Shown here: positions 8,901-63,660 of the stretch, one piece after another
How positions within the stretch are numbered: the stretch's first letter is position 1
Layout of the letters: every line of letters starts with the position of its first letter
DNA from: Prevotella sp.
GTDB taxonomy: Bacteria > Bacteroidota > Bacteroidia > Bacteroidales > Bacteroidaceae
Direction: 5' to 3'
Assembly: GCA_016287755.1 (NCBI GenBank)
Contig: JAEEWT010000003.1
Span: forward strand, 180,193 to 244,192
Length of the DNA stretch: 64,000 nucleotides
Program-made: the position numbers and the translations under genes
The notes under the pieces: generated by a model
What the model was told of the DNA's origin: nothing
The model's input: the letters and a program-made list of their open reading frames with translations, nothing else
Databases searched by the model: none

Positions 8901-9374
8901 ATGATGACGCAAGAGGAATTCAAACAGGAAGTGAAACGGATCAGATCCCATCTGGTGATAACCGCCCAGCGGTATCTCCATGATGCCGACGAGGCGGAAG
9001 ACATCGTACAGGATGTGCTGCTGCAGCTTTGGCAGATGATCGAAACCTTGCGGATTCCTTTTGATTCCCTGGCTGGAATCCTGGTGCGAAACCGCTGTAT
9101 TGACAAGGTGAGACGGCAAAAGCCTGTAGTACGGATGGAACAGCTGGTGGATGTTTATGAGGAAGATGTTGATTATGACCTGTTGGAACGCACCATGCGC
9201 ATGGTGGAAACATTGCCTGATATGCAGCAGACCATTATCCGGCTCCGCCATATGGAGGGAATGCAGATGAGTGAAATAGCACAGCTAACAGGTTCCACTG
9301 AGGTGGCAGTGCGGAAAGCTTTGAGCAGGGCACGTAAAGCCCTGGCGATGAAAGTTAAAGGTTTGGATTATTAG
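8901..9374 (+). CDS. ECF-type RNA polymerase sigma factor
   Basis: 157 aa. Region 2 is visible as AQRYLHDADEAEDIVQDVLLQLW and FDSLAGILVRNRCIDKVRR. Region 4 follows after a short linker as LPDMQQTIIRLRHMEGMQMSEIAQLTGSTEVAVRKALSRARKAL, a complete helix-turn-helix. The length is normal for ECF sigma factors, and no extra domain is present. An ATTACGTAAT palindrome (8876-8885) lies 15 bp upstream of the ATG and could be a regulatory site. The next gene encodes a small single-TM protein likely to be the anti-sigma partner, followed by two secreted proteins, so the set resembles an envelope-stress sigma operon. Confidence 0.92.
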   Translation: MMTQEEFKQEVKRIRSHLVITAQRYLHDADEAEDIVQDVLLQLWQMIETLRIPFDSLAGILVRNRCIDKVRRQKPVVRMEQLVDVYEEDVDYDLLERTMRMVETLPDMQQTIIRLRHMEGMQMSEIAQLTGSTEVAVRKALSRARKALAMKVKGLDY

Positions 9375-9404
9375 TTAGAGGATTAGAAATAAGGAGATTG
9401 AGAT

Positions 9405-9833
9405 ATGAGTAATATATTGAGAATACGGACATTGACCGATCGTTTCCTGGAAGGAGAGACGACACTGGAAGAAGAGCGCGAGCTGTATGCGTTCTACCGC
9501 AGTGAGGAAGTCCCTGACGACCTGCTGTCTTTACGACCGCTGTTCGTTGGTCTGGAAGAGATACAGTTAGAAACTCCATCCATCACTCCCAAGAAAAAGA
9601 CGGGTGACTGGCGTAAGTGGGTGATGATTGCTGCATCTGTTCTTGTGCTCTTCCTCCTTGGCGGAAGCTTCCTCTGGCAGCAACAGCAGAACGAATGTGT
9701 GGCGTATGTCTATGGTGAAAGAGTAACCGATCGTGATTTGATCATGCAAGAGATGGAACGAAGCATCGGAACCATGACCGAAGGTCAGAACGATATAGAG
9801 AATCAGTTAAACGATATGTTCAATATAAACTAA
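9405..9833 (+). CDS. Small single-pass membrane protein, putative anti-sigma factor
   Basis: 142 aa, not assigned to a named family. The N-terminal ~65 residues are charged and helical (LTDRFLEGETTLEEERELYAFYR), which resembles the short cytoplasmic sigma-binding part of Bacteroidota anti-sigma proteins. One membrane segment is clear at ~73-91 (WVMIAASVLVLFLLGGSFLW), leaving a ~50-residue periplasmic tail. Its position 30 bp after an ECF sigma gene is the main support for the role. It lacks the zinc-binding HxxxCxxC motif of ZAS-type anti-sigmas. Confidence 0.6.
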   Translation: MSNILRIRTLTDRFLEGETTLEEERELYAFYRSEEVPDDLLSLRPLFVGLEEIQLETPSITPKKKTGDWRKWVMIAASVLVLFLLGGSFLWQQQQNECVAYVYGERVTDRDLIMQEMERSIGTMTEGQNDIENQLNDMFNIN

Positions 9834-9840
9834 GTATAAC

Positions 9841-10287
9841 ATGAAAAGAATAGGTATCATACTTGTCATATTACATGCTGCGCTATTGGTACATGCGCAG
9901 CAAGGATTGCCGATAGATAAGCTGTTTCAAGGACAGGTGATTCCTCAGGAACGGATGATGGAGACAAAGGTACGTGGGAAGATGGTTGCCAAATACCAAC
10001 TGTCGTACTTCCATAGTCTGAGGTTCTTTGCTACTCCTAGCGAGGCGCACCTCATCATGACCCTTATTGACATGGGTGACCCCCACAAAGAATCCAAGCA
10101 GGAGAAGAGCGTGATGAGTACCAATACCACAGAAACCCGTATGATCCGTTTGGAACCGCAAGGGAAACAGAACCGTTATCTCTGTGCGAAAATGAATAAG
10201 AAAAACTCGAAGCGGGTCGAGATGGTGGTTATCTACATGGAAGGCGCCCTCTCATCGTTGGAGAAAATGAAAGAGATACTAAAATAA
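9841..10287 (+). CDS. Secreted protein of unknown function in the ECF sigma operon
   Basis: 148 aa starting 7 bp after the previous stop. It has a signal peptide (KRIGIILVILHAALLVHAQQ) and a mature part of ~128 residues with no motif I recognise. The mature region is basic, with predicted strands around VAKYQLSYFHSLRFFAT and a C-terminal helix SLEKMKEILK. Position suggests that it is a target or sensor of the sigma/anti-sigma pair at the envelope. Call is limited to secreted, function unknown. Confidence 0.65.
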   Translation: MKRIGIILVILHAALLVHAQQGLPIDKLFQGQVIPQERMMETKVRGKMVAKYQLSYFHSLRFFATPSEAHLIMTLIDMGDPHKESKQEKSVMSTNTTETRMIRLEPQGKQNRYLCAKMNKKNSKRVEMVVIYMEGALSSLEKMKEILK

Positions 10288-51950: not shown

Positions 51951-53708
51951 ATGAAGCGAATTGCGTATATTGTTGTTATTTTATGCATGTTCCTGTCTTG
52001 CGGCATAAGACGGGAGTATAAAGATGCCTTGCTGCGGGCAGAGGCGGTCATGGACGAGCACCCTGATTCTGCCCTGCAGATTCTCGACAGCTTGGGACAA
52101 TACGAGAGTGAGTTCACCCGCCACTTCCGTATGCAGTATCAGCTGCATCGGCAGAACGCCGTGAACAAGACCAGCGATAAGTTCACTTCCGACTCCCTTT
52201 GCCAGGTGCTTGTTAGCTACTTCGACCGCCACGGCACCGTTAATGAACGCGTACTCGCCCACTATCTCTTAGGCCGTGCCTACACGGATATGGGGGACGC
52301 CCCGCAAGCTATTAGTAGTTATCAGGATGCCATTAGTGCGGCAGATACAACAGTTACTGGTTTCAAATTCAGCACGTTGAATCGTATCTATGCACAGATG
52401 GCAGATATTTATCATCATCAACTCCTTTTGACTGATGAAATAGAAACACGTAAAAAGGCCAGTTACTATGCTTTCCGTGCCAACCAGCCTAAATGGGGCA
52501 TTTACAATCAAGCCATGATGGCAAATGCCTACATTCTTTTAAACCAGAAAGACACTGCTGAAACCATTCTAAAAGCTGTACGTGAACAGTTTCGTAAACA
52601 CGGCTATACCCAAGAGGCATTGCGGTATTCAAGACCACTTATGCATCTCTATACCAACCCACCTCAGCGACTGACTGAGGCTAAGGCATTGATGGATCAG
52701 TTTGAGGCAGAGTCTGAATTGTTTGACGAGCGCCACGAGCTCCCGCCCTCACAACGCAAATACTACGAATACAAAGGCAAGTACTATGAGGGCATCAACA
52801 AGCTTGACTCGGCAGAGTTTTATTACAGGAAAACAAGATACCCTAATATGGATTATACCGCGCAAGACCCGATGTACAAAGGTCTTCTGAGTGTATTTAC
52901 CAAGCGGCATCAGGCGGACTCCATTGCCAAATATGCCCGATTGTATTGCATGGCTAACGACTCCTCCATCGCCCTCAAGGATCGGGACGCTGTGGCCCAG
53001 ATGACCGCCACATACAACTACAGCCGACTGCAAAAGGAGGCGCACGAGAATGAGGTTAAGGCCTACAAGACACTGCTTGGCCTAATTATCGCGGCTGCTG
53101 TTGCCGTTCTTGCCTTGGTGGCTGTTTTCCTCGTTTGGAAACGATTCCGCAGGAAGTATCAACAGGAGATTATGCAGTTAAAGACGGAGTATGCCAACGC
53201 TTCCTACGAATATGAGGAGAACCTGCGTGAGCTGCAGCTGCTTGAATCTGCCCATCAAGAAAACGAGAGTGAGAGGAAGAGACTTCTGGACGAGAACGTG
53301 GAGTTGCAGAGCAGGATCCGGGAGCTCCAGAAGGAAAAGGCCATATCCAGGAACCTTTCTGCTTCCGCATTGTTTGCGGAAGAACCCATTGTCAAAAGGT
53401 TCCATGAAATAGCCGTTCAGCCGTTGGCGAACGTGAAAGAGGAGGAATGGGCAGAGCTGACAGACACGTTTGCCAACAGTTATCCGGATTTGTTCCTCGA
53501 CCTTTGTCAGTATTGCAACACCCCGCAGAGCATCCGTGTCTGCATGCTGACGGTCATGGGTCTCGGCAACAACGAGCAGGCGAATCTGCTGGGTACCACC
53601 AGTTCGAGAATATCCAATGTCAAGCTGGCTCTTAACAAGGCCCTCTTCAATGAATCATCCTCACGCACCCTGAACAAGAACTTGTTAATGCAGTATAGTG
53701 TGTATTAA
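51951..53708 (+). CDS. Membrane-spanning TPR regulator with cytoplasmic coiled coil and C-terminal HTH
   Basis: 585 aa from MKRIAYIVVI. A lipobox-like MFLSCG (Cys17) is present at the end of the first hydrophobic stretch. TPR-like helices fill ~25-340 (e.g. VLAHYLLGRAYTDMGDAPQAI). One membrane helix follows at ~375-397 (LIIAAAVAVLALVAVFLVW), then a coiled coil to ~470. The end (SIRVCMLTVMGLGNNEQANLLGTTSSRISNVKLALNKALF) reads as a LuxR/sigma-4-like helix-turn-helix. This is a known Bacteroidota regulator layout in which a periplasmic TPR sensor controls a cytoplasmic DNA-binding tail. It is the first gene of the A/T/B array and may control it; that is inference. Confidence 0.75.
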   Translation: MKRIAYIVVILCMFLSCGIRREYKDALLRAEAVMDEHPDSALQILDSLGQYESEFTRHFRMQYQLHRQNAVNKTSDKFTSDSLCQVLVSYFDRHGTVNERVLAHYLLGRAYTDMGDAPQAISSYQDAISAADTTVTGFKFSTLNRIYAQMADIYHHQLLLTDEIETRKKASYYAFRANQPKWGIYNQAMMANAYILLNQKDTAETILKAVREQFRKHGYTQEALRYSRPLMHLYTNPPQRLTEAKALMDQFEAESELFDERHELPPSQRKYYEYKGKYYEGINKLDSAEFYYRKTRYPNMDYTAQDPMYKGLLSVFTKRHQADSIAKYARLYCMANDSSIALKDRDAVAQMTATYNYSRLQKEAHENEVKAYKTLLGLIIAAAVAVLALVAVFLVWKRFRRKYQQEIMQLKTEYANASYEYEENLRELQLLESAHQENESERKRLLDENVELQSRIRELQKEKAISRNLSASALFAEEPIVKRFHEIAVQPLANVKEEEWAELTDTFANSYPDLFLDLCQYCNTPQSIRVCMLTVMGLGNNEQANLLGTTSSRISNVKLALNKALFNESSSRTLNKNLLMQYSVY

Positions 53709-53750: not shown

Positions 53751-53801
53751 ACGCAGCGCAAATTACGCATTTTTCTAGTAAACCACCAAATACCTGCCCA
53801 C

Positions 53802-54002
53802 ATTTATTTTGTATTGTGCTCGCTTAATCGTACATTGGCTTTGCCGAAGATACTCTCGCTCGACTATAAAAATAAATACAAATTTATTTTGTATTGTGCT
53901 CGCTTAATCGTACATTGGCTTTGCCGAAGATACTTTCGCTCGACAATAAAAATAAATACAAATTTATTTTGTATTGTGCTCGCTTAATCGTATCTTTGCA
54001 GC
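53802..54002 (+). repeat. Repeat B, three tandem 80-bp units (B1a-c)
   Basis: TTTATTTTGTATTGTGCTCG begins at 53803, 53883 and 53963, an exact 80-bp period. Each unit includes GATACTNTCGCTCGAC and the palindromic ACAATA...TATTGT region. Only the last unit ends in a functional promoter: TTTG (53968-53971)-19 bp-TATCTTTG (53991-53998). In the first two the -7 position reads TACATTGG. Confidence 0.85.
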
Positions 54003-55224: not shown

Positions 55225-55477
55225 TTTTTTCGATAAGCCAAATGAGCCATTCAAGCTTGCTTAGAAATGGCCATGGCGAGGAAAAGTCTAACGATGTGAA
55301 CTTTTGTGAACTTTTTTCTCGCGAATTATTTGGAACTATCATTTGTAGTATCTATATTTGCACCGGATTCGTGGGGTTCACTTTAGAAGTGTTCCTTCGA
55401 TTCACAAATGAAGTATACACTTTATATGGTGTTTAACATTATTTCTTATTTGCAGATGCAGTATTTCGCAATCTTCG
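55225..55477 (+). repeat. Repeat A, copy A2 (promoter plus conserved leader)
   Basis: Full copy: TTCGATAAGCC block, GTGAACTTTT repeats, promoter TTTG (55329-55332)-20 bp-TATATTTG (55353-55360), then a ~115-nt conserved leader (CACCGGATTCGTGGGGTTCAC... to GCAGTATTTCGCAATCTTCG). The leader holds a CACTT-tag-AAGTG hairpin and an ATTCGTG/CAC(A/G)AAT closing pair. It drives the serpin gene. Confidence 0.85.
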
Positions 55478-55531
55478 TGTTTAGAGTTAAGAGAATTGTA
55501 AACCATATAGAAAACAAATAAAACTACAACA

Positions 55532-56812
55532 ATGATGAAAAAGGTGTTTTTTATTTCGTTATTTTTAGGCTTTGCCCTGGTGAGCTGTAATAGCGATCCG
55601 GAGGAAAACATCGGGGAACAGCCTAACCAGCCCAACCAGACAGAGGAATCTGTCAAGAACGATGATCAGAAAGAGGAAATGGAGGAGCTGGAATCCTTGA
55701 TACTTACCCGTGCTCAGATGAATCAGGTAAGTGTGAGCAACGACTTTGCATTCCGTCTGGCGCAAGCCACTATGCAAAGCAATACAAGTGAAGTTCTTTC
55801 TCCTCTCAGCGTATCCTATGTGGTAGGTATGCTGGCCAACGGCGTGAGTGAGAAGACTCTAGGTGAAGTGACTGCTGCTATGGGTATGGACAATATGACG
55901 CTCAGCGAGATAAACGATTACTTCGAATTAATGCTGAAAGACCTACCCCGTCTTGACCTGTCATCCGAACTACTTCAAAGCAATGCGATCTTTGTGAATC
56001 GCGATTATTCATTGCTTGATGACTATGTTAATACTGTGGGCAAGACGTATTCAGCTGATTTCACCTCGCTTGATTTCAGGTTAGACAGTTCCGTGGATTA
56101 CATCAACCTGTGGGCATCTGACCATACCAAAGGCATGATCGACGAAGTGGTTAATTTTTTAAACCCGGCTGCTGTGGCATACGGTCTCAATGCTGTATAT
56201 TTCAAAGGCAGTTGGGTGGATAAGTTCGATGTAAACAATACGAAGGATGAAGCGTTCGGCAAGGGAGGTAAGCAGGTACCCATGATGCACCTTGAAGCCC
56301 AACTTAAATACGCATCTAACGAATACTGCCAGCTCTTGCAGATGCCCTATGGCAACGGTGCATTCCAGATGACTGTATTGCTGCCTAATGAAGGGATTAG
56401 TACCACTGAGTTGATGGGTATGATGAACGACAAACAGTTCAATAATATGTTGTATGGTCTAAGCAGGTGTAAGACGGATGTGAAGATTCCTCGTTTTGAA
56501 ACATCATGCAAACTGGGACTGAATGATGCACTGAAGAAAATAGGTTTGTCTTCACTCTACTCTCCTGAAGAGCGTTATGACAAGATGTCCATGGAAAAAC
56601 TCGTTCTGGAAAAAGTGGCTCAGACAGCTCGTATCAGGGTTGATGAGGAAGGCTCAGAAGCAGCCGCAGTCACCCATTGGGAGGCTACCAGCTCTGGTAA
56701 AGAGCAAGAGGTGAAGAACGCAGTCTTCCATGCCAACCGTCCGTTTATTTATCTCATCAGCGAGAAGGATCACGGCATCATCCTGTTTGTTGGTCACTAC
56801 GAAGGAGAGTAA
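55532..56812 (+). CDS. Serpin (serine protease inhibitor), lipoprotein
   Basis: 426 aa. A lipoprotein signal (ISLFLGFALVSC, Cys ~19) is followed by an acidic linker to ~65. The serpin fold is evident: NAVYFKGSWVDKFD, PMMHLEAQLKYA, LPYGNGAFQMTVLLP-type strand, and the C-terminal reactive-loop hinge VDEEGSEAAAVTHWEATSS followed by ANRPFIYLISEKDHGIILFVG. The hinge composition suggests an inhibitory serpin. Surface serpins of gut Bacteroidota may block host or competitor proteases. Its leader is repeat A2; the next gene is an OMP. Confidence 0.92.
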   Translation: MMKKVFFISLFLGFALVSCNSDPEENIGEQPNQPNQTEESVKNDDQKEEMEELESLILTRAQMNQVSVSNDFAFRLAQATMQSNTSEVLSPLSVSYVVGMLANGVSEKTLGEVTAAMGMDNMTLSEINDYFELMLKDLPRLDLSSELLQSNAIFVNRDYSLLDDYVNTVGKTYSADFTSLDFRLDSSVDYINLWASDHTKGMIDEVVNFLNPAAVAYGLNAVYFKGSWVDKFDVNNTKDEAFGKGGKQVPMMHLEAQLKYASNEYCQLLQMPYGNGAFQMTVLLPNEGISTTELMGMMNDKQFNNMLYGLSRCKTDVKIPRFETSCKLGLNDALKKIGLSSLYSPEERYDKMSMEKLVLEKVAQTARIRVDEEGSEAAAVTHWEATSSGKEQEVKNAVFHANRPFIYLISEKDHGIILFVGHYEGE

Positions 56813-56882: not shown

Positions 56883-57542
56883 ATGAAAAGAAGAATCATC
56901 ATTATCTGTGCAGGATTGCTGATAGCACTCCCTATTGTAGCGCAGGAGTTCAGGCCAGGTGTTCTGGCAGGATTGAATCTCAATGCGCCAAGTAACATGG
57001 AGTCTAGATATGGTTTCCGTATGGGCGTAAAGGGTGAACTGACATTCCCCAAGGTGGTCAAAGGTCTTTACGCTGAATCCGGTCTGATTCTCTCTTCCCT
57101 TCCATGGAAGTCAGAGAAGCACATTTACCCCAAAATAGGGATTGTATCGCAGACTAAGGCAACTCCTTACTACCTGAACATCCCTCTTCGTGCCGGATTC
57201 AAACTGAACTGCGGAAGGTTTGCAAAATTCTATGTAAATGCTGGTCCGTATTTGAATATTGGACTCTTTGGTAATATCAAAGAGTTTCTGAGATCCGCGA
57301 ATAACGAGCCATTACCTTGGTATAATGCGGACTCCAGTGGTTATTTCGATTATGTGGGTAGCGATCATATAGTTGACTGGGGCTTGGGGTTCGGCACAGG
57401 CATTGAAGTGGCAAGTCACTATCAGGTATCATTGGGTTACGAGTGGGGCATGCGTGACATTATGAAGTCTTCGTTTGACGACCGTATAATATACGATTCC
57501 CGTATGCGAACCTTCACGCTTCAACTTGCCTATATGTTCTGA
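56883..57542 (+). CDS. Porin-family outer-membrane beta-barrel protein
   Basis: 219 aa with signal peptide (IIIICAGLLIALPIVAQ). The mature part shows strands FRPGVLAGLNLNAPSNM, YGFRMGVKGELTFP, YLNIPLRAGFKLNCG, VDWGLGFGTGIEVASHYQVSLGYEWGM and ends LQLAYMF with terminal Phe. Same size class as PorT/OmpX-like barrels. It follows the serpin by 70 bp and precedes terminator T2, so the two probably share a transcript. Confidence 0.8.
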   Translation: MKRRIIIICAGLLIALPIVAQEFRPGVLAGLNLNAPSNMESRYGFRMGVKGELTFPKVVKGLYAESGLILSSLPWKSEKHIYPKIGIVSQTKATPYYLNIPLRAGFKLNCGRFAKFYVNAGPYLNIGLFGNIKEFLRSANNEPLPWYNADSSGYFDYVGSDHIVDWGLGFGTGIEVASHYQVSLGYEWGMRDIMKSSFDDRIIYDSRMRTFTLQLAYMF

Positions 57543-57665: not shown

Positions 57666-57740
57666 TTAGATACTTTCGCTCGACAATAAAAATAAACTCA
57701 CATTTATTTTGTATTGTGCTCGCTTAATCGTATCTTTGCA
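57666..57740 (+). repeat. Repeat B, copy B2
   Basis: GATACTTTCGCTCGACAATA ... promoter TTTG (57708-57711)-19 bp-TATCTTTG (57731-57738). Single unit, nearly identical to B3 and continuing to match it up to the RhuM start codon. Confidence 0.85.
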
Positions 57741-57783
57741 CAAGTTTTGTAGCAACTATAGTATAACTATTAAATTTGACATT

Positions 57784-58638
57784 ATGGAGAACATAGAATC
57801 CTGCAAGGGTGAGATTGTGATGTATCAGCCGGATGAAACCATTCGTCTAGAAGTACGAGTAGAGAATGAGACAGTATGGCTGACTCAACAGCAGATGGCA
57901 GTTTTATTTAATGCCACCAAGCAGAATGTCAGCTTGCATATCAGTAACATCTACAATGAAGGAGAACTTGACGAGATCTCAACTGTCAAGGATTCCTTGA
58001 CTGTTCGTCAAGAAGGTAATAGAACAGTACGACGATATGTCAAATACTATAATCTTGATGTGATCATCTCTGTGGGTTATCGAGTAAAATCATTGAGAGG
58101 AACAAGATTCCGCCAATGGGCAAATCGCATTTTAAAAGACTATTTATTACATGGATATTCTATTAATAGGCGATTTGAGCAGATTGAACACCGTTTAGTA
58201 GTTGCAGAGGGGAAAATCGACTTTTTTGTACAAAAATCTTTACCTCCCGTTGAAGGCATCTTCTACGACGGGCAGATATTCGATGCGTATGCGCAGATTG
58301 TTAGCATGATCAAACAGGCTAAGCGGTCTATTGTTTTGGTGGATAACTATGTTGATGAAACAACTTTGACGATGCTGAGTAAGCGGGGTGCTAATGTATC
58401 AGCAACCATCTACACCAAACAGACTGCTCAGCAGTTCCAACTTGATGTGCAACGGCATAACCAGCAATACCCTCCCATAACGATTCATGCCTGTCAGCAC
58501 AACCACGATAGGTTCCTGATTATCGATGATGTGGTATATCTGTTCGGCGCCAGCCTGAAGGATGCAGGGAAGAAACTCTTTGCCTATATCCAGATGCAGG
58601 AAACATCAGCGGCTGACTTATTGAACTGGATCAGATAG
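57784..58638 (+). CDS. RhuM-family DNA-binding protein with C-terminal PLD-like domain (copy 1)
   Basis: 284 aa from MENIESCKGEIVMYQ; the earlier codons of the ORF track lie in repeat B and the leader. The N-terminal ~130 residues are a RhuM/ORF6N-like DNA-binding domain (TVWLTQQQMAVLFNATKQNVSLHISNIYNEGELDE, then LDVIISVGYRVKSLRGTRFRQWA). The C-terminal ~140 residues have HDRFLIIDDVVYLFGASLKDAGKK, a phospholipase-D-like half-site (H-x-R in place of HxK). Cytoplasmic. First 62 nt and last ~398 nt are nearly identical to copy 2, whereas the middle differs. Confidence 0.85.
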   Translation: MENIESCKGEIVMYQPDETIRLEVRVENETVWLTQQQMAVLFNATKQNVSLHISNIYNEGELDEISTVKDSLTVRQEGNRTVRRYVKYYNLDVIISVGYRVKSLRGTRFRQWANRILKDYLLHGYSINRRFEQIEHRLVVAEGKIDFFVQKSLPPVEGIFYDGQIFDAYAQIVSMIKQAKRSIVLVDNYVDETTLTMLSKRGANVSATIYTKQTAQQFQLDVQRHNQQYPPITIHACQHNHDRFLIIDDVVYLFGASLKDAGKKLFAYIQMQETSAADLLNWIR

Positions 58639-58651
58639 TCTTCTTTTGTGC

Positions 58652-58906
58652 TTTTTTTCGATAAGCCAAATGAGTCATTCAGGCTTGCTTAGAAATGGCC
58701 GTGGCGAGGAAAAGTCTAACGAATGTGAACTTTTGTGAACTTTTTTCTTGCTAATTATTTGGAACTATCATTTGTAGTATCTATATTTGCACCGGATTCG
58801 TGGGGTTCACTTTAGAAGTGTTCCTTCGATTCACAAATGAAGTATACACTTTATATGGTGTTTAACATTATTTATTATTTGCAGAAGCAAGGTTTCGCAA
58901 TCTTCG
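58652..58906 (+). repeat. Repeat A, copy A3
   Basis: Full-length copy with promoter TTTG (58758-58761)-20 bp-TATATTTG (58782-58789) and the conserved leader. Differs from A2 by few bases (GAGTCATTCAGGC, GGCCGTGGCG). Drives the small lipoprotein gene. Confidence 0.85.
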
Positions 58907-58962
58907 CATTTATATAGTAAAGAGAATTGCAAACCCTATAGAAAACAATTAAAACTACAACA

Positions 58963-59445
58963 ATGATGAAAAAGGTTTATCTAATAGTGTCAATTATGTT
59001 CCTGGTTAGTACAGGAATCATACTTACAGCTTGTAGCAGTGATGATGACTCCTCAACAACGTATAGCGAGGCAGATCTTCAGAAGATGGTTGAAACAAGA
59101 ATGGGCAGTGCAAATCAAAATGCCCTTCCTGATGAAGAACTTCCTGAATGGATTAAAGAATGGATGCAGGAGAAAACTGCATCTTTGAGTAAAGATAAAG
59201 AATTCTACAAGGATTTCTCTGAACTCGGATTCTTACAATACCAGTATAGAATATATCAATGTAAGTGGAATGAAGAAGTGTTCTACTTCATCTATCCATA
59301 TGGTGATTCTTGTTTCTGGTGCAATGCTGTTTACAGTGCAGACGGCACAAAAAGGGATTGGGCGAGTGTTGAAGACACGAAAGACTTTGTCACAAATAGT
59401 ACATCATGGAGGTGCGTGGTTGACTTGTTATCAGAAGGGGAATAA
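58963..59445 (+). CDS. Small lipoprotein of unknown function
   Basis: 160 aa. Signal peptide with lipobox ILTACSS (Cys ~24) and an acidic post-lipobox linker (DDDSS), typical of surface lipoproteins in Bacteroidota. The mature part has a helical segment (~37-85) and a C-terminal YRIYQCKWNEEVFYFIYPYGDSCFWCN with four cysteines. I do not recognise the family; the C-terminal block recalls small DUF6970-like secreted domains but only loosely. It lies between A3 and T3 in the array, as a single cargo gene. Confidence 0.7.
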   Translation: MMKKVYLIVSIMFLVSTGIILTACSSDDDSSTTYSEADLQKMVETRMGSANQNALPDEELPEWIKEWMQEKTASLSKDKEFYKDFSELGFLQYQYRIYQCKWNEEVFYFIYPYGDSCFWCNAVYSADGTKRDWASVEDTKDFVTNSTSWRCVVDLLSEGE

Positions 59446-59550: not shown

Positions 59551-59626
59551 TTTAGATACTCACGCTCGACAATAAAAATAAACTCACATTTATTTTGTAT
59601 TGTGCTCGCTTAATCGTATTTTTGCA
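59551..59626 (+). repeat. Repeat B, copy B3
   Basis: Promoter TTTG (59594-59597)-19 bp-TATTTTTG (59617-59624), in a unit matching B2 except for GATACTCACGCTCGAC and the -7 box. Drives RhuM copy 2. Confidence 0.85.
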
Positions 59627-59669
59627 CAAGTTTTGTAGCAACTATAGTATAACTATTAAATTTATGATT

Positions 59670-60527
59670 ATGGAGAACATAGAATCCTGCAAGGGTGAGA
59701 TTGTGATGTATCAGCCGGATGAAACCATTCGGTTGGAGGTGAGAATGGGTGAAGATACCGTGTGGCTTAGTGCTAACCAAATGGCATGTTTGTTCGAAAG
59801 AGACGAAAAAACAATAAGAAAGCATATTAACAATGTGTTTTCTGATGAAGAAGTGCCAAAAGATATTAACACGCATTTTTTGCGTGTTGATGGAGTTAAG
59901 CAACCTGTTGCTTTTTACACCCTTGATGTTATTATTTCAGTTGGATACAGGGTGAAGAGCAAACGAGGTACAGCCTTCCGCCAATGGGCAAACAAAGTCC
60001 TAAAAGAGTATCTACTTCAAGGCTATTCCATCAATCATAATTTGAAAGAAGTGCAAAATCAGTTAGGCACACACGACAAAAGAATCAATGCATTAGAGGA
60101 AAAGGTTTCCTTCTTTGTCCGTTCGTCCTTACCTCCCGTAGAGGGAATCTTCTACGACGGTCAGATATTCGATGCGTATGCGCAGATTGTTAGCATGATC
60201 AAACAAGCTAAGCGGTCTATCGTTTTGGTGGATAACTATGTTGATGAAACAACTTTGACGATGTTGAGTAAACGGGGTGCTAATGTATCAGCAACCATCT
60301 ACACCAAACAGACTGCTCAGCAGTTCCAACTTGATGTACAGAGGCATAATCAGCAATACCCACCCATTACGATTCATGCCTGTCAACGTAATCACGACAG
60401 GTTCCTGATTATCGATGATGTGGTATATCTGTTTGGTGCCAGTCTGAAGGATGCAGGGAAGAAACTCTTTGCCTATATCCAGATGCAGGAAACATCAGCG
60501 GCTGACGTATTGAACTGGATAAGATAA
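59670..60527 (+). CDS. RhuM-family DNA-binding protein with C-terminal PLD-like domain (copy 2)
   Basis: 285 aa from MENIESCKGEIVMYQ; an ATG two codons earlier (59664) is possible but the copy-1 alignment favours 59670. The first 62 nt are identical to copy 1, then the RhuM core is different in sequence (TVWLSANQMACLFERDEKTIRKHINNVFSDEE, YTLDVIISVGYRVKSKRG), including a different recognition helix. From tacctcccgt onward (60130) both genes match again over 398 nt with no indel, covering the PLD-like domain. Driven by repeat B3, followed by A4. Confidence 0.85.
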   Translation: MENIESCKGEIVMYQPDETIRLEVRMGEDTVWLSANQMACLFERDEKTIRKHINNVFSDEEVPKDINTHFLRVDGVKQPVAFYTLDVIISVGYRVKSKRGTAFRQWANKVLKEYLLQGYSINHNLKEVQNQLGTHDKRINALEEKVSFFVRSSLPPVEGIFYDGQIFDAYAQIVSMIKQAKRSIVLVDNYVDETTLTMLSKRGANVSATIYTKQTAQQFQLDVQRHNQQYPPITIHACQRNHDRFLIIDDVVYLFGASLKDAGKKLFAYIQMQETSAADVLNWIR

Positions 60528-60540
60528 TCTTCTTTTGTGC

Positions 60541-60790
60541 TTTTTTCGATAAGCCAAATGAGCCATTCAAGCTTGCTTAGAAATGGCCATGGCGAGAAAA
60601 AGTCTAACGAATGTGAACTTTTGTGAACTCTTTTCCTGCGAATTATTTGGAACTATCATTTGTAGTATCTATATTTGCATCGGATTCGTAGGGTTCGTTT
60701 CAAAAGCGTTCCTCCGATTCACGAATGAAGTATACATCCAAGCGGTGTTTAACATTGTTTAATATTGGCAGATGCAGTATTTCGTAATTA
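60541..60790 (+). repeat. Repeat A, copy A4
   Basis: Promoter TTTG (60646-60649)-20 bp-TATATTTG (60670-60677) and a leader with compensatory changes in the hairpins: CGTTT..AAGCG instead of CACTT..AAGTG. Drives the LRR gene. Confidence 0.85.
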
Positions 60791-60829
60791 TCTGATTATC
60801 AGAATAAGAGTCAAACTAAAAAGAAGATT

Positions 60830-62599
60830 ATGAAAAAGTTATTTTCTTTATTATTAATGGTGGTCATCTCCGTTGGTGTAAATGCACAGGCGGTAATTGC
60901 AGAGGTTGATTGGACTCAAGAATCAGACTATTATAATGATGTGTGGTTCTCTCCGTTTACTATTAATTATTCTGTTACCAGTAGAGGACTGGAAATAGAA
61001 TCCCTTTCTCATGACTGTGAACAAATCTGGGAAGCACAGATACCAATCATTGCACATATTAAAGAACTTAAGGGTGGAGGACAGTATCAAGTTAAACTTA
61101 CTATAGATGCTCCTTATGCCAGTGATATTCGTTTGGATTTACGTGACTGGGCAGTTATTCAAGTCAATTATCTAAGTATAGAGGCAGGTGAGCACGAATA
61201 TACTGTTGACTTCCTTGATTATCCTGATGAATGTACTGATGCTTTTTTAATGTACCAGTGTGGTTATTCACCTGGTATACATGTGATTAAGAAAGTTCAG
61301 GTTATTGATCTGGAAGCCGGTCAAGAAAAAGGGATTATTTATAATTACGATACAAACAATAAAACCGCAGTGGTAAAAGGAATTTCCAAGTATTCTCAAG
61401 AAAGAATAGAGATTCCCAAAACGGTTATCCATCAAGGGGAAGAATTCACAGTTACCAGAATCGGAGAAGGTGCTTTTCAGGGTTGCAATGACCTGATTGT
61501 TGTAAAAATCCCCAACAGTGTAACAGCTATCGGCAGTAACGCTTTTGCATATTGCACCAACCTGGCTTTTGTTGATATGCCAAACAGTGTGACTCGTATT
61601 GATGAAGAAGCTTTCTATGGCTGTAGCAGTCTGGTTTCAATAAACTTGCCTGAAAATCTGTCTCGCATCGGCCATTGGGCCTTCGCCAATTGCAGCAGTT
61701 TGGTATCAATAGACATACCCCGAGTAACACCGTTCATTTCCAACCATGCTTTCGCCGGTTGCACCAGTCTGACTTCTGTAACTTTCCGGAATAGTTTCAT
61801 CAACCTCAGTGAGTATGTTTTTTATGGTTGCAGAAGTCTTTCTGAGATAAAGATTGTTGTATATGATGAATATTCATTCTGCCAAAATGCCATTCTAAGT
61901 CAATTGAAGAAAGACAATGTTGATTGTCCAATTACCTTATTAAAAGAAAATGGAAATGAAATCAAAGAACTCAAAATACCCGAACTTGTTACGTCTATCG
62001 GATTTGGAGCTTTCTATAATTGTAAAGGCTTAACGTCCGTAAGTATCCACAATGGAGTAACGTCCATCGGTGAATCAGCATTCGAGAATTGCTCTAATAT
62101 AACTTCTGTGTCAATACCCAATAGTGTAACTTCTATCGGAGGAAGAGCATTTTATAACTGCGCAGGGCTAACCTCCTTAGTTTTACCTTATGATTTATCA
62201 ATTATCAAGAAGCAAGCTTTCTATGGCTGTGCCAACCTAGAAGCCGTTACCATTCCTGCTTCTGTGGAATATATCTTCCAAGAAGCATTCGCGGGATGTA
62301 ATAATATACAACAAGTGAATGCGCTGCCAAAGATTCCACCTTTCATGTTTGCCAACTCTTTCTCCAACTACGATGCCACCTTGAAAGTGCCTGACTCTTC
62401 GATAGATTTATATAAGAACTCTGATCCTTGGAGCAGATTTAAGATGATTGTGACAACATCAATACAGAATCCTTCCGTCGCTACCCATCCTGGTATCATC
62501 TCCGATGTGCCACTCTACGATCTTGGAGGTCGCAGAGTACAGGGTACACCGAAGAAGGGAGTGTATATACAAAACGGTAAAAAACATGTGGTGAGATAA
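60830..62599 (+). CDS. BspA-type leucine-rich repeat surface protein
   Basis: 589 aa. Signal peptide (LFSLLLMVVISVGVNAQ). The N-terminal ~140 residues form a CBM-like or jelly-roll region. From ~205 to ~515 there are about a dozen LRR_5 repeats of the form F.GC..L..V.IP.SVT.IG..AF (BspA/TpLRR type). The tail PLYDLGGRRVQGTPKKGVYIQNGKKHVVR is a type A-like sorting tail. Such proteins bind host or bacterial surface molecules. Driven by A4; A5 starts 16 bp after its stop. Confidence 0.92.
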   Translation: MKKLFSLLLMVVISVGVNAQAVIAEVDWTQESDYYNDVWFSPFTINYSVTSRGLEIESLSHDCEQIWEAQIPIIAHIKELKGGGQYQVKLTIDAPYASDIRLDLRDWAVIQVNYLSIEAGEHEYTVDFLDYPDECTDAFLMYQCGYSPGIHVIKKVQVIDLEAGQEKGIIYNYDTNNKTAVVKGISKYSQERIEIPKTVIHQGEEFTVTRIGEGAFQGCNDLIVVKIPNSVTAIGSNAFAYCTNLAFVDMPNSVTRIDEEAFYGCSSLVSINLPENLSRIGHWAFANCSSLVSIDIPRVTPFISNHAFAGCTSLTSVTFRNSFINLSEYVFYGCRSLSEIKIVVYDEYSFCQNAILSQLKKDNVDCPITLLKENGNEIKELKIPELVTSIGFGAFYNCKGLTSVSIHNGVTSIGESAFENCSNITSVSIPNSVTSIGGRAFYNCAGLTSLVLPYDLSIIKKQAFYGCANLEAVTIPASVEYIFQEAFAGCNNIQQVNALPKIPPFMFANSFSNYDATLKVPDSSIDLYKNSDPWSRFKMIVTTSIQNPSVATHPGIISDVPLYDLGGRRVQGTPKKGVYIQNGKKHVVR

Positions 62600-62615
62600 T
62601 TCAAAATAAGTTGGT

Positions 62616-62744
62616 TGTATCTATATTTGCACCGGATTCGTGGGGTTCACTTTAGAAGTGTTCCTTCGGATTCACGAATGAAGTACATGCCAGCGGCGTT
62701 TAACATTATTTAATGTTGGCGGGTGCAGTATTTCGTAATCTTTG
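62616..62744 (+). repeat. Repeat A, copy A5 (leader part, upstream half missing)
   Basis: Begins at the -7 region GTATCTATATTTGCACCGG (TATATTTG 62622-62629) and keeps the leader, with the better-pairing ATTCACGAAT variant. No -33 TTTG is present, so the gene behind it may depend on read-through from the LRR gene. Confidence 0.8.
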
Positions 62745-62782
62745 AATTAATAGAATAAAAAGTCTACTAAAAACGGACGAAT

Positions 62783-63541
62783 ATGAAAAAGGTTTTGTAT
62801 ATATGGTGCGTTTTTGCTCTGCTCGCCTTTGTAGGCTGCAGTAGCGACAAAGACGACATGGAAGATGATTCTCTGAATGAGGAGGTATTTCTTTCACAGG
62901 CAAATTTAAAACCTGAGTTCAGTAAAGGTTATAGGAGTTCCCGTGGTCAAGACACGAGTTATACTGATGAGAATAATGCTGAGGTAACGCGTGACTGCAA
63001 TGGGGTGGTAAAATTTGTATATTACAACAACACGCCAACAAATAGTCGTCCTCGGTCGCCAGAACAGTTCGTTTCCACCTATTTAGGTGTTGACTTAAAT
63101 GCGAACTTCAAGAAGTATCGAGAGGAAGTGGATGAATATGGTAATCTTCATTCATGGTATAGACAATACTATAAGGATGTAGAAGTTGAGAATCATGGGT
63201 ATGTATTCCATAGCAGCAAGAAAGACTACCGTATTTCAAGTGTCAACGGCTCGTTCCTACCCGTCAGTAATTTGGATGTTGTTCCTGCCTTCAGCGAAAC
63301 AACTGCTCGTAAGATCTATGCCAAGTATTTAAATCTACCCTTGGAATACATAGGAGGACCAATCCTTTACATAGTTGAATTTCCATTATCGGCAGAATCC
63401 GATTTGTGGGCACCGCGTTTGGTATATTATCTCGGTGTCGTTGGCACCGAAGAGATACAATATCTTTCTGATGAAGGACAATGCTATATTGATGCAAAGA
63501 CAGGAAGGATACTCTATGTGTGGCCCAACTACAAACACTGA
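62783..63541 (+). CDS. Lipoprotein resembling a stand-alone FTP/PepSY propeptide
   Basis: 252 aa. Lipobox FVGCSSDKDD (Cys ~19). Residues ~85-150 resemble the FTP domain of thermolysin/fungalysin propeptides (LHSWYRQYYKDVEVENHGYVFHS..., ISSVNGSFLP). Residues ~175-250 resemble PepSY (LVYYLGVVG, YIDAKTGRIL). No peptidase domain follows. As propeptides of this kind inhibit their cognate metallopeptidases, a secreted inhibitor is possible but unproven. Behind leader A5, before T4. Confidence 0.65.
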   Translation: MKKVLYIWCVFALLAFVGCSSDKDDMEDDSLNEEVFLSQANLKPEFSKGYRSSRGQDTSYTDENNAEVTRDCNGVVKFVYYNNTPTNSRPRSPEQFVSTYLGVDLNANFKKYREEVDEYGNLHSWYRQYYKDVEVENHGYVFHSSKKDYRISSVNGSFLPVSNLDVVPAFSETTARKIYAKYLNLPLEYIGGPILYIVEFPLSAESDLWAPRLVYYLGVVGTEEIQYLSDEGQCYIDAKTGRILYVWPNYKH

Positions 63542-63616
63542 CAACGGCTTGAAAAGTGCAGCTCTGTGCTCCTTCCCTGAACTACAAAGAGAAAGCATAA
63601 TAGTCCTCTGATTGTG

Positions 63617-63660
63617 AAACCATCCATCATGCCATGACTGGCAAATGGGTGGTTTCGTTT
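63617..63660 (+). terminator. Terminator T4 (CCACCCAT family)
   Basis: CCATCCAT/ATGGGTGG hairpin; the C-to-T change is compensated by a G-T pair, which keeps the stem. Followed by TTTCGTTTT. It closes the array. Confidence 0.75.

Follow-up and report, generated by a model that had tools for sequence, protein, structure and literature searches.

The propeptides of M4 metallopeptidases inhibit their own enzymes (PMC5078317, PMC4282423). For PepSY proteins such as YpeB, SspA and those of the BVU2987 type, inhibitory roles have been proposed (PMC4282423, PMC2954215), and the role of PepSY proteins that are not joined to a peptidase is an open question (PMC4282423). In Tannerella, lipoprotein inhibitors are encoded next to protease genes (PMC4404884, PMC7296668).

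The window analysed here (the whole stretch of 64,000 nucleotides of Prevotella sp. DNA) comes from a genome of 3.2 Mb, where it forms the end of contig C38. It contains a lipoprotein gene whose product had been taken, in the original prediction, for the propeptide of a thermolysin-type peptidase without the peptidase (Table 1). Both the Pfam FTP match and the structural matches described below bear this out. The FTP model (PF07504) was matched over its full length (1-51/51) with 32.1 bits, against a cut-off of 21, which places the protein in the FTP family. The PepSY model (PF03413) reached 18.3 bits against a cut-off of 24, and membership of that family is not indicated by sequence; residues 193-247 are named PepSY-like because their fold resembles PepSY-bearing structures despite the sub-cut-off Pfam score. 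An NCBIfam M4 thermolysin match at residues 66-175 (E 8e-7) was far below its cut-off. No peptidase domain was found in the window protein, the open reading frame stopping after the propeptide, and it does not classify as an M4 zymogen. Peptidase_M4 (PF02868) was absent from its own genome, and this genome contained no second FTP match over the cut-off. In the alignment of relatives Cys19 is nearly invariant. The sequence CSSDKDD after the lipobox resembles the export signal of surface-exposed Bacteroidota lipoproteins. A PDB match to the mannose-6-phosphate receptor (E 0.005) was short, had no support from the fold and was taken as chance.

Table 1. Features of the lipoprotein array at the end of the window
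Feature	Position	Strand	Basis and remarks
Leader of the serpin gene, same type as that of the FTP gene	55332..55531	+	-33 TTTG; -7 TATATTTG at 55353
Serpin lipoprotein, miropin relative	55532..56812	+	Pfam PF00079, 1.3e-83; hinge VDEEGSEAAAVT
Outer-membrane beta-barrel protein, directly after the serpin	56883..57542	+	Pfam OMP_b-brl_2, 2.4e-10
Small lipoprotein, same leader	58963..59445	+	Mature part with 4 Cys, not counting the lipobox Cys
BspA-type leucine-rich-repeat (LRR) secreted protein, same leader	60830..62599	+	Pfam LRR_5, 1.7e-95
Leader of the FTP gene	62611..62782	+	-7 box TATATTTG at 62622-62629; 5' UTR ~150 nt; -33 TTTG missing
Stand-alone FTP/PepSY propeptide-like lipoprotein	62783..63541	+	Exact ORF with ATG start, encoding 252 aa
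Signal peptide and lipobox (..FVGC), lipidated Cys19	62783..62839	+	Translation
FTP domain, residues 107-158	63101..63256	+	Pfam PF07504, E 9.9e-8
PepSY-like domain, residues 193-247	63359..63523	+	Sub-cut-off Pfam, E 0.003; Foldseek fold match
C-terminal tail WPNYKH	63521..63538	+	Alignment to MCP-02 propeptide chain 3nqy_A; tail survey
Cassette-end repeat, imperfect inverted repeat CCATCCATCATGCC..GGCAAATGGGTGG	63613..63654		Repeat family D7; also at 53703, 57563 and 59468

An AlphaFold model was built with an alignment in which the window protein was joined by two relatives (three sequences in all). The mean pLDDT of the model was 67, most blocks of residues 61-160 being at 79-92 and most of those in the FTP domain region at 84-92. 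Comparison of the model to the PDB with Foldseek gave the autoprocessed propeptide of vibriolysin MCP-02 as best match (3nqz_A, probability 1.00, E 5e-6) and the C-domain of YpeB as second (5boi, probability 1.00); the fungalysin propeptide was also matched (4k90_B, probability 1.00). The predicted fold is thus that of an M4-type propeptide (probability 1.00, E 5e-6 to 3e-4), at moderate model confidence and with modest TM-scores (0.30-0.49), and the structure prediction that had been proposed as a check on the FTP/PepSY assignment came out in its favour. By sequence alone, a profile of 11 relatives found the MCP-02 propeptide (2.7e-5), the thermolysin zymogen (3e-4) and, weakly, pro-elastase.

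The MCP-02 propeptide chain consists of 180 residues and was aligned up to residue 174. After the last aligned column six residues are left in this autoprocessed chain and in the window protein alike, which places the C-terminal end of the window protein at the cleavage point of the zymogen. In this protease family the cut falls between H and A. The C-terminal sequence of the window protein is YIDAKTGRILYVWPNYKH and the corresponding stretch of the related protease Vsm reads YFIDATTGDVLQKWNGLNHAK (PMC5078317, Table 3). All stand-alone members surveyed but one stop 13-24 residues past the start of the terminal PepSY strand (IDAxTG), the exception (G394) having an extra lipocalin-like domain at its C-terminal end. 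The sequence of the tail is variable across the family (WPNYKH, YRTSYDW, IMITE).

The genus was surveyed in 398 genomes, about 20 of which (one with a truncated copy) contained the stand-alone form; 22 stand-alone relatives were found. Full M4 enzymes with the same prosegment were present in four genomes. It had been foreseen that homologues might carry a peptidase domain in place of the stand-alone form; however, the closest relatives are stand-alone, and full M4 enzymes occur only among the more distant ones. None of the 20 genomes holding the stand-alone form contained a full M4 peptidase (G373 has a 31-position fragment), and therefore a helper of a resident thermolysin was ruled out. Across the family, 299 sampled genomes from 27 genera yielded no match other than in the window's own genome. 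For the window gene and its counterpart in the sister species dN/dS was 0.25, and two further pairs gave 0.3-0.5, from which it follows that the gene is maintained by purifying selection. A pseudogene of an M4 enzyme was rejected on the basis of the first of these values and the similar-sized stand-alone members across the genus.

Isolate RUG047 of an uncultured Prevotella sp. provided the nearest relative (L004, whose contig is apparently that of the sister genome G178), in which the FTP gene is ~80% identical. In L004 the array is located before purL, and in the window's genome the matching continuation opens contig C46. Relatives of ~405 aa with an added domain N-terminal to the FTP/PepSY part were seen at L023:3836-5056 (minus strand; G000:C42) and L074:1-1218. 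By eye, the added domain resembles a subtilase prodomain (ANEIYESGDF..SQPD). A Fervidolysin_NPro-like profile run on partner proteins (including those on G090 C46 and G000 C42) gave an E value of 0.02 for one and no match for the others.

Within the window, one leader type consisting of a promoter and a 5' UTR precedes the genes at 55532, 58963, 60830 and 62783, with a mean column identity of 83%; these calls are based on repeat families D6/D8 and an alignment of the four leaders. A serpin had been noted about 6 kb upstream under the same type of leader, and is indeed located 5,971 bp upstream of the FTP gene. Three of the four copies have a full promoter (TTTG - 20 bp - TATATTTG), the consensus arrangement of Bacteroidota-type promoters. 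The FTP copy keeps the -7 box only, and the FTP gene may therefore depend on the preceding gene; the LRR gene ends 183 bp before it. The cassette-end repeat is terminator-like and may act as a terminator. The beta-barrel protein is conserved in the sister genome and 93% identical in L004.

Hairpins are predicted in the shared 5' UTR (55363-55481, 58792-58910, 60680-60797 and 62630-62745). Two compensated pairs among five copies are weak evidence for such a structure, and a search of the leader against Rfam gave no match to a known RNA. Copies or parts of this 5' UTR are also present on contigs C42, C44 and C46, near other secreted proteins. In addition, the window contains two RhuM-family genes (57709-58638 and 59595-60527). 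Together with a RhuM gene in L004 (4697-5608), their 3' halves are 89% identical over 300 nt and their middle parts, with the probable DNA-binding region, differ, which looks like part-gene exchange. Both are preceded by a leader, TTTATTTTGTATTGTGCTCGCTTAATCGTA, which also forms tandem 80-nt repeats at 53768-54000. A palindrome type, GGTCACAAyTTGyGACC, occurs twice in imperfect form near the contig end (63700-63800), the two being ~75 bp apart.

The window serpin was closest in the PDB to miropin (5ncs, E 1.4e-58), and with a Serpin domain and a hinge conforming to ExG[TS]EAAAxT it classifies as an inhibitory serpin. Of the 20 genomes that encode the FTP lipoprotein, 19 had serpins, versus 213 of the 398 genus genomes (Fisher P 5e-5). 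In 8 of the 20, FTP and serpin genes were at most 7 kb apart, where uniform placement expects 0.30. Four genomes had them less than 100 bp apart or overlapping (3 bp in G018, 31 bp in G150, 74 bp in G266 and a stop/start overlap in G394), and in G013 a single lipoprotein gene lies between the two. A close tandem is seen in five genomes. Gene order and orientation vary among the linked loci, and the linked FTP members are found in about six branches of the tree, interspersed with unlinked ones. All eight linked serpins contain a lipobox and the hinge EEG[ST]EAAAVT, which fits the inhibitory consensus (PMC8233489), and their reactive loops vary in length and sequence. In the other 12 genomes no serpin was found within 7 kb. 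The serpin is also missing from the array of sister genome G178, showing that even close relatives differ in the presence of the FTP-serpin pair.

When the neighbouring genes were clustered, an ECF sigma/anti-sigma pair came out on top with 9 genomes, followed by serpins with 8. Six of the nine genomes with the ECF pair also have a linked serpin, and the pair is possibly a regulator of the FTP locus. It was observed near FTP genes in L027, L029, L030, L066, L067, L068, L070 and L075. Lipoproteins with the motif FVINSEEEL..YKG..LP form part of a neighbour cluster in six genomes, and were seen near FTP genes at L005:6822-7469 and 9370-9960, L065:6879-8948 and L023:2262-3761. Frames of ~850 aa with two successive serpin domains (double-headed) were noted on G032:C76, G086:C96, G150:C5, G234:C84 and G236:C71.

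Lipoprotein genes cluster generally in these genomes, which makes uniform placement too easy a null, so that the P values against it overstate specificity; moreover, the 7 kb limit was set after the spacing in the window was known. For these reasons, another lipoprotein family from the same arrays, present in 32 genomes, was used as a control. With a limit of 7 kb, a serpin was close to this family in 3 of 32 genomes and to FTP in 8 of 20 (P 0.012); with a limit of 1.5 kb the counts were 1 of 32 and 6 of 20 (P 0.010). Leaving out G352, a shared genome, and the discovery genome gave 6 of 18 for FTP and 2 of 31 for the control at 7 kb (P 0.021). The link to serpins exceeds the background of the arrays, by a smaller margin than in the naive test.

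Two inhibitor-like folds in one array had been noted, with the lipoprotein at 58963 as a possible third inhibitor. The pairing holds, and linkage to a serpin is found again among the relatives (8 of 20 genomes in all), but a third inhibitor is not supported: this lipoprotein matched no Pfam or NCBIfam family over the cut-off and its predicted model was poor (pLDDT 52). A distant relative, the only one in the loci covered, lies between two FTP genes of G220. The lipoprotein belongs to the array; the inhibitor label is without support.

We estimate at about one in two the probability that the FTP lipoprotein acts alongside serpins in the envelope and inhibits thermolysin-like peptidases of foreign origin. 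Its fold, its stand-alone form, the purifying selection, the absence of a resident M4 peptidase and the serpin linkage support this, and the support comes more from the relatives than from the window itself. Points against it are the modest model, the PepSY score below the cut-off, the variable tail and the lack of a serpin in the G178 array and within 7 kb in 12 of the 20 genomes. In such a mechanism a complete M4-type prosegment (FTP and PepSY) would be retained on the envelope as a separate lipoprotein, presumably facing outward at the surface. The FTP/PepSY body would dock on the catalytic domain of a thermolysin-like metallopeptidase from outside the cell, probably made by another organism, and the free C-terminal tail, stopping at the zymogen cut site, would occupy and block the active-site cleft like a product, so that the free prosegment would act as the inhibitor. 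The recurrent locus would add miropin-type lipoprotein serpins, trappers of serine and cysteine proteases, and with the FTP lipoprotein directed at metallopeptidases the two would together cover several protease classes.

The structural match to YpeB also fits a YpeB/SspA-like PepSY regulator, which would hold or control a non-protease partner in the envelope, for example a cell-wall hydrolase or a signalling protein. Known stand-alone PepSY proteins control SleB or affect septation (PMC4282423), and the ECF sigma/anti-sigma genes in nine genomes would suit such a role. However, no hydrolase is repeatedly found next to the gene, the gene that does recur there, regulators aside, encodes a protease inhibitor, and the FTP part matches M4/M36 propeptides; we consider the regulator unlikely. 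A partner could also be sought among the secreted non-M4 peptidases of the same cell, which the lipoprotein would serve in trans as chaperone or inhibitor. The FTP gene of G118 follows the gene of a secreted trypsin-like serine protease (L026:229-2751) by 73 bp, and in G020 putative metallopeptidase genes are nearby, but across the 22 loci no peptidase neighbour recurs and the genomes contain no full M4 partner, which makes this possibility improbable.

Finally, the gene might be carried along neutrally, or as a relic, in a lipoprotein array that is being shuffled, its link to serpins reflecting a general clustering of lipoprotein genes. The reuse of leader and signal peptides before unrelated genes, the FTP leader copy lacking its -33 box and the control lipoprotein that is itself near serpins in three of 32 genomes are in line with this. 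The low dN/dS of the window gene, the excess of FTP linkage over the control at both distances (P 0.01) and the tight tandems, three with short spacings and one overlapping, argue against it, and we regard a passenger as quite improbable.

Returning to inhibition of foreign peptidases, a wider and rather doubtful proposal is that foreign-protease prosegments were turned into free lipoprotein inhibitors and bundled with lipoprotein serpins into a regulated anti-protease coat with interchangeable parts, the bundle adjoining the ECF sigma/anti-sigma pair in some genomes. The known kinds varied here would be the stand-alone PepSY-type proteins and the bacterial lipoprotein inhibitors. With its entire M4 prosegment, its recurring serpin partner and no target in the same genomes, the family allows one function, defence against foreign proteases, to be tested directly with commercial enzymes. 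Should that function be confirmed, a zymogen-derived class of inhibitors would be defined, and the variable lipoprotein arrays of gut and rumen Prevotella would be explained in part.

Compared to the M4/M36 propeptides (MCP-02 3nqy/3nqz, the thermolysin zymogen 5a3y and fungalysin 4k90), the window protein agrees in fold, in having FTP before PepSY and in its length up to the autocleavage point, but it is encoded as a separate lipoprotein gene without a peptidase, in genomes without a full M4 peptidase. The stand-alone PepSY proteins YpeB, Streptomyces SspA and Bacteroides BVU2987 (DUF2874) are likewise of PepSY fold and secreted or lipid-anchored; they are described as PepSY/DUF2874 repeats, whereas the window protein is a full FTP and PepSY prosegment with a link to serpins. 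The potempins of Tannerella are also lipoprotein protease inhibitors of a host-associated member of Bacteroidales (PMC7296668). Their likeness to the window protein is limited to the signal peptides, the mature part being dissimilar, and potempins pair with the protease that they inhibit, whereas the FTP lipoprotein has no recurring protease partner; with a signal-peptide match only and no protease neighbour in this region of the window, membership of the potempins was rejected. The window serpin shares the inhibitory hinge and the lipoprotein form with miropin and the bacterial group T serpins (PMC8233489), and differs from miropin in its reactive loop and in its linkage to the FTP lipoprotein.
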